A stretch of DNA of 64,000 nucleotides from Xanthomonas sp. F10 (GTDB lineage Bacteria; Pseudomonadota; Gammaproteobacteria; Xanthomonadales; Xanthomonadaceae), in contig NZ_JACHNP010000001.1 of NCBI RefSeq assembly GCF_014206815.1, positions 462,456 through 526,455 of the forward strand, in the 5' to 3' direction. Below, piece by piece: positions 58,240 to 64,000 of the stretch (positions are counted from its first letter, which is position 1; every line of letters starts with the position of its first letter). A program made the position numbers and the translations under genes. The notes under the pieces are model-generated. The model saw nothing but the letters and a program-made list of their open reading frames with translations. It did not search any database and was not told the DNA's origin.

Positions 58240-59859
58240 TTGGAGACTAATCCTCGTAAAGAAAAGCTATCTATCTACCTGCTAAGAGATGGCATCAATT
58301 CGATTGAAGCTTGCCTCAAGGAGGAGATGATAAGTAGTAGTTACGTCTTTCCGCTTGTGGATGGCGATGCCACTCTACTTTTGAAACGCGCCCCGCCAGA
58401 GAGACCTCCCATCTGGACTAGAATGTTCACTGAGCATCCCAACGCACCGGATGTGGATTTCGGATCCAGTAAGAGCGTCGGGGCAGTTTTACATATAGCT
58501 GTAGACCATAGAAAATTTTTAATTTCATTTGGGACCGGATTTCACCTTATAAGAGGTGAAGCATTAGAGAGAGACTTTGGTCTTCGCGTCACGTTAAATT
58601 CGGTTGATCCAGATAAACTTAGAAGCCTCGACAAAGCTAGCTACGACGACAATCCGCTTAGCTCGCGAACACAGAGCACACTTCAAGCGGATATTTTTGA
58701 CCTGCAAGTCAATTCCGAACTAGATTTAGTCTATGCAATAACCGGCGCCTGCAAGTTCCCGCTTCTTGGAACTCATGTCACTGGCCGAGATGCGCTAACC
58801 TTGATGGTTGAAACAAAGCTGAGCGGAATAAAGCCTATCCTAGCAAAAGCGCTTGAGCTATTTGGGCAGAAGCTACCTCCGACTTATGCTTGGATCGACA
58901 ACGTTGCCAGAATCAGGGATGCCGAGACTATTGAGTTACTGGACATGCTTCTCGATGATTTGATAAAGAGCGGCAGCACAGAAATATGGCTAGGAGAGCC
59001 GGAAATTATTGACTGGGAGTCAAACTCTGGTTATTCGTTTGATATGCATCCCAACACCCCCAGGCACCAGGTCCTGACAATCTGTGATCTCAACAGTCAT
59101 ATCCTATCAAAGGGGCTGCTCTTTAATTTAGATTCAATTAAATTAATCCACATACACATCAACGATCAAAACTATAATTCCATCAAAGAATGGCAAGCTT
59201 ACAGATGCATATACGCCGAAGTTACAGATGGCGACAATAAATATGTGCTTCGAAATGGATCTTGGTTAAAGATAGAATCCAGCTTTATTAATCAGATTGA
59301 TCGGCAGCTAGCCAATATCGAAGTAGAAACATGTGCACTTCCACCGTATTCATTCGCCAATGAAGGCGAATACAATAAAACCGTTTGTGCCCTCAACAAA
59401 AACCTACATTTGATGGACAAGGACAACATTAGAACTGGCGGACCTTATGACAAAATTGAGTTCTGCGATCTAATAGAGGGACAGAGCAAATTTATTCACG
59501 TGAAGTATTACAGATCATCCGCCACACTAAGCCACCTTTTTGCACAAGGCGCTGTAGCTGCTGAAACATTTTTAAAAGACGAAGAATTTCGCAAGAGACT
59601 AAATTCCAAGCTCCCGACCAATCTAGCGCTTAGTGACACTAGACTAAGACCCGATGCAGGAAAATACAAAATCACTTACGCCATAGCGACCAATAAATCC
59701 ATACCATCGGAACTTCCTTTTTTTTCAAAAATCTCACTCAAGAATGCAGCTTCGCAATTAGGCGCCCTCGGATACAACGTGTCATTGACTGCAATTCCAG
59801 TCGATCCAGCACTTTTGATTACGAAAAAATTTAAGCCAAGGCCGATAAGAAATAGATAG
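58240..59859 (+). CDS. TIGR04141/DUF6119-like sporadically distributed protein
   Basis: This 539-residue soluble protein starts at a TTG with a GGGGGA ribosome-binding site and opens with KEKLSIYLLRDGINSIEACLKEE, the typical TIGR04141/DUF6119 N-terminus. Other landmarks are SVGAVLHIAVDHRKFLISFGTGFHLI and KFIHVKYYRSSATLSHLFAQGAVAAETFLKDEEFRKRL, the second resembling the conserved DUF6119 block. The family is scattered among bacteria, often in defence islands, and its activity is unknown. GC content is about 43 percent, far below the surrounding genome, a sign of recent transfer. The start could be earlier by an ATT codon, but TTG gives the family length. Confidence 0.72.
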   Translation: METNPRKEKLSIYLLRDGINSIEACLKEEMISSSYVFPLVDGDATLLLKRAPPERPPIWTRMFTEHPNAPDVDFGSSKSVGAVLHIAVDHRKFLISFGTGFHLIRGEALERDFGLRVTLNSVDPDKLRSLDKASYDDNPLSSRTQSTLQADIFDLQVNSELDLVYAITGACKFPLLGTHVTGRDALTLMVETKLSGIKPILAKALELFGQKLPPTYAWIDNVARIRDAETIELLDMLLDDLIKSGSTEIWLGEPEIIDWESNSGYSFDMHPNTPRHQVLTICDLNSHILSKGLLFNLDSIKLIHIHINDQNYNSIKEWQAYRCIYAEVTDGDNKYVLRNGSWLKIESSFINQIDRQLANIEVETCALPPYSFANEGEYNKTVCALNKNLHLMDKDNIRTGGPYDKIEFCDLIEGQSKFIHVKYYRSSATLSHLFAQGAVAAETFLKDEEFRKRLNSKLPTNLALSDTRLRPDAGKYKITYAIATNKSIPSELPFFSKISLKNAASQLGALGYNVSLTAIPVDPALLITKKFKPRPIRNR

Positions 59860-62624: not shown

Positions 62625-63299
62625 TTAGAGGAGAAGCGCTCCCTGCCTATCCAGACTAGTCAGTCCGTGGATCCTAGACATGCCCTCACGGAACTCGGAA
62701 ACTCCCCCATAACTCGGATGTCGCACTTGGTCAACATCAACACCCAGCTTGGAGGCGTAGATTGCCGCGTCCTGCCCGATGGCGACAATTCGCTCAATTC
62801 TTAGAAGCCTAATCAACTGAAGATTTATCTCGCTCGCAACCGAAAACTCATGCGCAGTGAATTTTCTATTTGAAAGTTCATCCCCATCCAAATACGGATG
62901 AAATGGAAACACATTCCAAAGCATCGGCGGTGCGCTTATCTGACGCAAAACCGACCATATCTCTGTAGCAGTACGCTCAACCACCACTGGTCCCACCGTT
63001 GATCGCTGCGGCTGCTCAAATCCATACAACGTGCCCAGTTCTGACAAGTGTGCTTCATCAGTCAGCGCGACGCCTGTCCGTCGCCCTCCACGGTAGCCGA
63101 GATCCCGGCCCATCCACATGACCCGGGAATCAATTCCCCTGACCGCATTTAGATAGCTGAGAAGGAGTGCTCTTCGAATAAGGGGACTCTCAACAGACTT
63201 ATCATGCCTTGCGCACACGTCTTTGTAGGGATTGAACACTCTTGGCAGGCTTACGCCCGCGAGTCGTTCTACGAACTTCTTTGTGCTCGGTAAGCTCAT
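62625..63299 (-). CDS. uracil-DNA-glycosylase superfamily protein
   Basis: The 224-residue protein has UDG-superfamily landmarks: MWMGRDLGYRGGRRTGVALTDE (the first motif, with Gly-Arg-Asp in place of the usual Gly-Glu-Ala), WNVFPFHPY (the NVFPFHP motif), and RHPSYGG near the end (the HPS-type motif), with IVAIGQDAA between. These shape the uracil pocket. It probably removes uracil or another altered base from DNA. The start overlaps the end of the upstream MazG-like gene by 98 bp, so the two are translated together. A later start would shorten the overlap. No close characterised relative is named. Confidence 0.78.
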   Translation of the reverse strand: MSLPSTKKFVERLAGVSLPRVFNPYKDVCARHDKSVESPLIRRALLLSYLNAVRGIDSRVMWMGRDLGYRGGRRTGVALTDEAHLSELGTLYGFEQPQRSTVGPVVVERTATEIWSVLRQISAPPMLWNVFPFHPYLDGDELSNRKFTAHEFSVASEINLQLIRLLRIERIVAIGQDAAIYASKLGVDVDQVRHPSYGGVSEFREGMSRIHGLTSLDRQGALLL

Positions 63300-64000
63300 C
63301 TACTTCTTGAAGCCCTTTGTACGTGATGTTCCGCGCGTTGAGATCGGCAACTACATAACCGCCTCGCTCTCGCTTCAGAATTCTAAAGATCTCGAACCCC
63401 TTAAGGATAGCATTTGCCCACTCCCAGGGCTGGCACGCCGCGACCTCATACCCCTTAACAAGCGACTGGACCTGCTTCAGAACAGAGTAAGGGAATTTCT
63501 CCAAGCGCACTCCTTCGAATAGATGCTCGCGGCCGATGTTGAACATCCAGGTCGAAATTGCCTCCTCGATTATTATCGCGCGCGCGCCGTCCTCATTTTC
63601 ATCAAGAGTTGGGGATGACTTTCTCTTCCGCTTAAGAAGGGCGCGGAGCACTGGCGACCAACCCAGGCAAGCGGCGTAAGCCAAGTGAAACACGTCATGA
63701 AACCGGTAATCGTCCGCTTCGTGGCTGTTGTCGGTCAAGCGATCTCCGACATTAACGCCATTTACCGAAATGAACGCGTACGGGACTGAGCCGACCTTTC
63801 GCTCTTCAAACCGCACCCAAAGTGTGCGTGGGAGCTGTTCGGTCTCATCTGATTTTGAGTCGAAGAGCTGCGATGGCAAAGGACATGCGCCCGGCCACCG
63901 TCCACGAACCTTATCGACATTCTCTATCGCGATTTGCTCTAAGTCTAGGCTCAAGGAATGCGTCAAGAGCGCAAGGTCCGCTAGCAATCCTGCCAACGCG
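63202..64000 (-). CDS. MazG-like nucleoside triphosphate pyrophosphohydrolase, 5' end outside window
   Basis: The frame reaches the right edge, so the N-terminus is missing; 265 codons are visible. The first part, LALLTHSLSLDLEQIAIENVDKVRGRWPG, is the end of a MazG-type domain. The rest has YRFHDVFHLAYAACLGWSPVLRALLKRKRKS and EDGARAIIIEEAISTWMFNIGREH, a conserved layout known from MazG-like phosphohydrolases of this type, with His-Asp and Glu residues that could bind metal. MazG enzymes turn dNTPs into dNMPs plus pyrophosphate. It overlaps the UDG gene by 98 bp, suggesting a joint role in handling altered nucleotides. Confidence 0.7.
   Translation of the reverse strand, partial: ALAGLLADLALLTHSLSLDLEQIAIENVDKVRGRWPGACPLPSQLFDSKSDETEQLPRTLWVRFEERKVGSVPYAFISVNGVNVGDRLTDNSHEADDYRFHDVFHLAYAACLGWSPVLRALLKRKRKSSPTLDENEDGARAIIIEEAISTWMFNIGREHLFEGVRLEKFPYSVLKQVQSLVKGYEVAACQPWEWANAILKGFEIFRILKRERGGYVVADLNARNITYKGLQEVDELTEHKEVRRTTRGRKPAKSVQSLQRRVRKA

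Follow-up and report, generated by a model that had tools for sequence, protein, structure and literature searches.

At the end of a 64,000-nucleotide stretch of the Xanthomonas sp. F10 genome (contig NZ_JACHNP010000001.1; G000:C1:462456-526455; here called the window) lie two overlapping genes, for a MazG-like protein and for a protein resembling uracil-DNA glycosylases (UDGs). We find that they are the last two of five genes, in the order SLATT - TIR - Nmad2 - MazG/MazG_C - UDG-like, which probably serve in conflict, above all against phages. A preliminary description of the window had presented the two as a pair; both are present, but they are only the tail of this operon and part of a system. 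Its anatomy comprises the gene order, the predicted glycosylase fold and conserved pocket residues of the UDG-like protein, the linkage of MazG_C to the UDG, two cassettes of further neighbours, and HMUDK_hel where the UDG is missing. Of the two functions first considered, sanitation and antiphage defence, the latter is favoured because of the company of TIR, SLATT, SLOG, SIR2 and patatin genes, the location on plasmids and in islands, and a sporadic occurrence. We regard it as an even call whether these five genes form a conflict operon, directed most likely at phages, that works by joining base excision, MazG, Nmad2, TIR and SLATT in one mechanism.

The operon and its proteins

The operon continues beyond the window, and its remainder was taken from the host genome (locus L002; window position = L002 position + 52544). 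It consists of five consecutive minus-strand genes, with gaps or overlaps of no more than about 100 bp between them:

L002:13018-13881 (window numbering 65562-66425, outside the window), minus strand: SLATT_3+SLATT_1 gene; ATG within a longer open reading frame (ORF) with a TTG start
L002:12534-13001 (window numbering 65078-65545, outside the window), minus strand: ThsB-like TIR gene; ATG within a longer TTG-start ORF
L002:11926-12543 (window numbering 64470-65087, outside the window), minus strand: Nmad2 gene
L002:10658-11944 (window numbering 63202-64488, end approximate; 63202..64000 inside the window), minus strand: MazG+MazG_C gene, 428 aa
L002:10081-10755 (window 62625-63299), minus strand: UDG-like gene, 224 aa, ATG start; last gene of the operon, UDG superfamily with a predicted SMUG1-like fold
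63202-63299, minus strand: MazG/UDG overlap of 98 bp, in the C-terminal MazG extension beyond the part shared with homologues

The two ORFs and their 98-bp overlap are as first described, with the MazG stop at 63202, and the MazG-like gene, completed beyond the window edge, carries both PF03819 and PF18722.

No Pfam, NCBIfam or PADLOC model matches the UDG-like protein above its cut-off, and the best PHROG match has an E-value of 0.27; the assignment is based on profile and fold comparison, not on family-model matches. Searched against the PDB, a profile of the family matches uracil-DNA glycosylases (E 0.006-0.02). The structural model has the UDG alpha/beta fold (SMUG1-like), and the SMUG1 entries of the fold comparison share 16-21% identity with the protein. 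Conservation was counted over 101 aligned UDG-like proteins, the window copy among them. The first motif, GRDLGYRGGRRTG, had been called unusual; it is present, but it is the signature of the whole family and not a local oddity, with D66 in 97/101, G68 in 101/101 and G71 in 101/101. H194 of the second motif and N129 are invariant (101/101 each). In human SMUG1 (hSMUG1), N85 and H239 are catalytic, N163 binds uracil, and 5-hydroxymethyluracil is a substrate that is removed (PMC13230825). Paired by motif in our own alignment, D66 corresponds to N85, H194 to H239 and N129 to N163, so that the first-motif catalytic Asn of SMUG1 is replaced by Asp in 97/101 proteins. Family-1 UDGs have an Asp at this position, while family-4 UDGs have four Cys that bind an iron-sulfur cluster; in the UDG-like alignment, C29 is the sole Cys in invariant or nearly invariant columns.

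According to the model, the UDG-like protein has the glycosylase fold and conserved base-pocket residues, in keeping with the preliminary description, and it is likely to be an active glycosylase. Modified or uracil-containing phage DNA had been suggested as the target; a 5-substituted uracil is the likelier base and plain uracil the less likely one, and we give the 5-substituted substrate slightly less than an even chance. A housekeeping UDG was rejected, as four other UDG-family matches lie above the Pfam cut-off in the host (G000:C1:440785, C1:597156, C2:219717 and C1:408139) and the Pfam model misses the UDG-like protein. Likenesses of the UDG-like protein to 7uk6 (E 0.014) and to Pfam PGM1_C (E 0.013, below cut-off) were dismissed as chance.

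The MazG protein matches PF18722 (MazG_C) with 246 bits and PF03819 (MazG) with 26.5 bits (cut-off 22). MazG pyrophosphohydrolases have four metal-binding acids, ExxE...ExxD; here E47, E74 and D77 are found in 82/82 aligned proteins, and E50 is present in the window copy but not conserved across the family. The MazG frame extends ~35 codons past the end of the homologue matches (tblastn ends at residues 389-396), and it is this C-terminal extension that gives rise to the 98-bp overlap. That this overlap serves as a conserved means of coupling was rejected, since a 4-nt NTGA overlap is usual (63/77 loci with adjacent MazG, window locus counted). A phage origin of the MazG-UDG pair found no support: seven phage records match the MazG protein by tblastn, in its N-terminal part only, and UDG-like relatives occur in five IMG/VR loci. 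The phage MazG-like PHROG family phrog_229 matches MazG residues 42-389, and MazG_C-like proteins therefore do exist in phages.

Nmad2 is recognised by PF18753 (230.9 bits), and its model, with a predicted local distance difference test score of 94.4, gives weak ASCH/EVE/YTH-type matches to PUA-like modified-base readers; it is possibly a PUA-like domain of this kind. The TIR protein matches Pfam ThsB_TIR (PF08937, 69.4 bits) and is the only operon protein recognised by PADLOC (ThsB, PDLC00418, E 9.5e-61, span 3-155/155). Its Glu (E111, numbering of the TTG-start ORF) is present in 24/26 aligned proteins. The adjoining SLATT gene, separated by a 16-nt gap, encodes a protein matching SLATT_3 (PF18184, 133 bits) and SLATT_1 (PF18181, 119 bits). 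As phmmer finds no relative of it in the other loci of the UDG-fetched set (see below), the SLATT protein looks like a local effector. Signalling from TIR to SLATT appears to us about as probable as its absence.

Recurrence, cassettes and exchange with HMUDK_hel

A scan of genome contigs gave at least 248 UDG relatives, of which the best 80 loci were analysed; these were fetched by their UDG as closest relatives, and their pairing rate cannot be taken as that of a population. In 73/80 loci a MazG-family gene occurs within ~8 kb, and in 66/80 it stands immediately upstream in the same orientation; after removal of loci with UDGs at least 90% identical, the counts are 61/68 and 54/68. Of the plasmids whose UDG is at least 40% identical, 23/28 also carry MazG_C; in 22 of them the two genes are within 4 kb, and in one the pair spans the origin of a circular record. 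The five plasmids without MazG_C comprise two Hydrogenophaga records with the same match position (NUDIX present in the one examined), two with a DCD/dUTPase-like gene and one whose UDG is matched in two pieces and looks broken. For more distant plasmid UDGs, MazG_C was found in 0/17.

An even draw over the class found the UDG-like gene in 8/274 genomes, window genome included, and in 0/2 same-family relatives. MazG_C is present in 2/274, both carrying an adjacent UDG; the UDG of G107 has a NUDIX gene upstream, and the remaining 5/8 show no scanned family, HMUDK_hel or G107-type NUDIX within ~5-8 kb on each side, one of these regions being shortened by a contig end. In an even draw over the phylum, the UDG occurs in 6/349 genomes, with MazG_C as partner in G000 and G578 and NUDIX in G107; G530 is a weak partial match, and the UDGs of G571 and G495 have no recognised partner. 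Hence the co-occurrence to which the preliminary description had pointed is real in that the pair recurs (66/80 UDG-fetched loci, 23/28 plasmids), but a strict obligate pair was rejected, since the class draw shows pairing in 2/8, and 5/8 of its UDGs have no recognised partner within the stretches covered. Other neighbours of the loci also handle dU/T nucleotides, namely DCD/dUTPase-like, NUDIX and thymidylate kinase genes and, beside one plasmid locus, thymidylate synthase. In L125:3971-6292 the UDG-like gene is in two pieces ~1.4 kb apart, with MazG and the families of the protease cassette (below) all alongside.

Seen from the MazG side, the phylum draw holds MazG_C in 4/349 genomes, with the UDG adjacent in G000 and G578 (in two pieces in G578) and HMUDK_hel adjacent in G351 and G548. 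A similar exchange was observed on plasmids: of 34 with MazG_C, 23 have the UDG, 9 have HMUDK_hel within 5 kb, none has both and 2 have neither, which places HMUDK_hel near MazG_C in 9/11 MazG_C plasmids without UDG. Conversely, 9/21 plasmids with HMUDK_hel have MazG_C. Pfam confirms the domain in four proteins (E 3.5e-83 to 2e-115), three from the nine plasmids, and the HMUDK_hel profile has no match among ORFs of the UDG-fetched loci. From these sequence patterns we read the UDG-like protein and HMUDK_hel as putative alternative base-acting enzymes beside one partner, MazG_C. We take the exchange as the chief indication of 5-hydroxymethyluracil chemistry; the domain name is Pfam's and the activity here is predicted. 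On a Parabacteroides plasmid (L145:5505-8595), a radical SAM gene comes after TIR-Nmad2-HMUDK_hel.

Two cassettes accompany the MazG-UDG genes. Nmad2 is present in 27/80 loci, in 26/27 together with a TIR-cluster protein or a small Nuc_deoxyrib_tr-like protein, F90; Pfam does not recognise every TIR-cluster member as TIR (L052). F90 (Pfam Nuc_deoxyrib_tr E 0.0038, below cut-off) takes the place of TIR beside Nmad2 in L028, L031, L032, L033 and L100, and L014, L060 and L084 each have two TIR-Nmad2 pairs, one of them apart from MazG-UDG. The 181 scanned neighbours of Nmad2 loci, listed in two halves with the first 25 families for each, include TIR_2 (17 ORFs), SLOG cluster 2 (10), patatin (5), SLOG cluster 3 (4) and, from the second half alone, phage integrase (4); SIR2 is also among those of defence type.

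The other, convergent cassette, found in 48/80 loci, consists of a helix-turn-helix protein, an ImmA/IrrE peptidase, a papain-like C1 peptidase and a ~260-aa protein. Both cassettes occur together in 1/80 loci (L033) and neither in 6/80, four of those being cut by contig ends; this distribution has a Fisher p of 2.8e-14 with relatedness ignored and of 6.3e-12 after dereplication. The ImmA/IrrE peptidase carries an inhibitor domain resembling chagasin, which at 24.4 bits stays under the cut-off of 27.2. In L059:8672-11117 and like cassettes, an IrrE-like metallopeptidase with this cysteine-protease inhibitor type of domain thus stands beside the papain-like protease, which looks as if it comes with a built-in brake. 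The ~260-aa protein has an invariant Cys in 8 aligned sequences, a match to PF00303 in one member (E 0.0036, below cut-off) and an hhalign match to thymidylate synthase at E 0.0029 with a probability of only 10.6, and no thymidylate synthase match in the PDB; it is possibly, on these weak similarities, thymidylate-synthase-like.

The acquired-island setting proposed for the window locus is supported by a GC content of ~50-55% across the operon vs 61-74% in the flank on the side of aceE, an upstream gene of the same orientation that does not belong to the operon. Close to the operon, the gene for a DUF6119 protein (window 58240-59859, PF19614, E 4.6e-129), inside a stretch of 41-47% GC, looks like a second gene of foreign origin. 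Between aceE and the SLATT gene, a perfect 11-bp stem with a 4-nt loop was found by eye (L002:13903-13928, outside the window), possibly the aceE terminator; a pattern scan for promoters and terminators gave fewer sites than in shuffled sequence and did not report this stem.

Proposed mechanism and alternatives

In the mechanism proposed here, the UDG-like enzyme would act on phage DNA, flipping out and excising a 5-substituted uracil, which would be either 5-hydroxymethyluracil or a precursor of hypermodified thymidine, and the abasic sites left behind would stall replication. Phages with DNA derived from 5-hydroxymethyluracil are reported to use this modification against restriction (PMC6449724). 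MazG/MazG_C would remove the matching nucleotide and starve the phage of modified deoxynucleoside triphosphate (dNTP), or alternatively keep the base out of host DNA and thereby confine cutting to the invader. Nmad2 may bind modified or abasic DNA and switch on the TIR protein, whose signal, derived from nicotinamide adenine dinucleotide, would open the SLATT membrane protein; that excision triggers TIR activity is inferred. A broader form of this proposal, to which we attach a rather low probability, is base-excision-triggered immunity, in which a 5-substituted-uracil glycosylase, swappable with HMUDK_hel, would feed the Nmad2 reader and from there a TIR-membrane or papain-protease output, with MazG_C for self-protection. 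To our knowledge, no earlier immune pathway has modified-base removal as its signal, and this would be the first, if true.

The same enzymes could also act in other ways. In a poison/antidote arrangement, modified dUTP would enter replicating phage DNA, which UDG-like excision then destroys, while MazG keeps the pool of healthy cells clean; the modified dUTP would come from the phage or possibly from the thymidylate-synthase-like gene of the protease cassette. The linkage of that cassette to MazG-UDG, and the DCD/dUTPase-like genes beside UDGs without MazG in some loci, are in agreement with such a role, but the window locus has no thymidylate-synthase-like gene, 26/27 Nmad2 loci lack the cassette, and the assignment is weak, with no PDB match. 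We consider this unlikely. A comparably low probability applies to the UDG-like protein as a non-catalytic sensor of a modified base or nucleotide, signalling via the TIR or protease cassette, with MazG_C supplying or removing the ligand. The absence of the SMUG1 catalytic Asn from motif 1 and the signalling type of the partners would fit this, yet D66 is conserved nearly as well (97/101) as other pocket residues, and an Asp is usual here in family-1 UDGs.

Less probable still is a sanitation or repair pair without an immune role, in which MazG clears non-canonical dNTPs and the glycosylase those incorporated in DNA. The enzymatic logic is direct, and NUDIX or dUTPase-like genes occur where MazG is missing; however, the UDG-like gene is sporadic (8/274 class genomes, 0/2 same-family relatives), the loci lie on plasmids and islands coupled to TIR or protease cassettes, and the host already possesses four UDG-family genes that pass the Pfam cut-off. 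Equally improbable is the modification of self DNA, where the loci would put hypermodified thymine as a mark into DNA of the plasmid or the host, with the UDG-like protein or HMUDK_hel as eraser or writer. Pfam describes HMUDK_hel as the helical domain of 5-hydroxymethyldeoxyuridine DNA kinase, and the annotation of one plasmid copy reads 'putative DNA base hypermodification protein', but the five operon genes include no further modification enzyme, neither TIR nor SLATT being one. The host genome also has no HMUDK_hel match, a weak point, as control genomes gave none either.

Relation to known systems

Defence by excision has a precedent in the glycosylases Brig1, of UDG-like fold and with uracil-DNA glycosylases as best structural matches (PMC11078745), and Brig3 (PMC13160076), which take modified bases out of phage DNA and block replication; the UDG-like protein may act analogously. 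Their bases are hydroxymethylcytosine derivatives, and their partners differ: homologues of Brig1 have an ADP-ribosyl glycohydrolase and a SIR2 protein nearby, and Brig3 is accompanied by BapA. The Brig1 paper makes no mention of MazG (PMC11078745). Brig proteins are not named in the fold-match lists of the UDG-like protein, an absence that is uninformative. From SMUG1 the UDG-like protein differs by the Asp in place of the catalytic Asn, by an identity of 16-21% and by its embedding in a mobile operon.

The operon TIR resembles that of Thoeris in matching the PADLOC ThsB model over its whole length, but no ThsA model is matched by any of the five proteins; SLATT, Nmad2, MazG_C and the UDG-like protein are found instead. 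Firmicutes phages have been reported to carry TIR and SLATT genes in one neighbourhood, and ADP-ribose derivatives are the predicted trigger of SLATT there (PMC9503650). The operon described here likewise has a TIR gene adjoining a gene for a two-transmembrane SLATT protein, and contains in addition a base-excision enzyme and a putative base reader. The closest domain vocabulary is that of DefensePredictor, whose highlighted predicted-system domains, without experimental validation and with reference to Burroughs 2015, include MazG, MazG-C, dUTPase and a nucleotide modification associated domain, with UDG in the Fig. 6F legend (PMC13092281). Its systems are defensive by prediction, and the likeness is one of domain names. 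The earlier statement that no described system has exactly this pair is tempered by this list, and related predicted systems are already known and hence not new.

The literature searched contains no SMUG1-like assignment, UDG/HMUDK_hel exchange, two-cassette architecture or substrate prediction for these genes, Burroughs 2015 and Iyer 2013 being outside this comparison. Burroughs et al. 2015 reportedly treat TIR-SLATT and nucleotide-centric conflict systems and may describe more of the operon, and Iyer 2013 may describe parts of the network. The mutual exclusion of glycosylase and HMUDK_hel yields a concrete substrate prediction. If true, the coupling of a uracil-type glycosylase to TIR signalling would be the thymidine-side counterpart of the Brig glycosylases, which act on the cytosine side, and three poorly understood domains, MazG_C, Nmad2 and HMUDK_hel, would gain testable functions at once.
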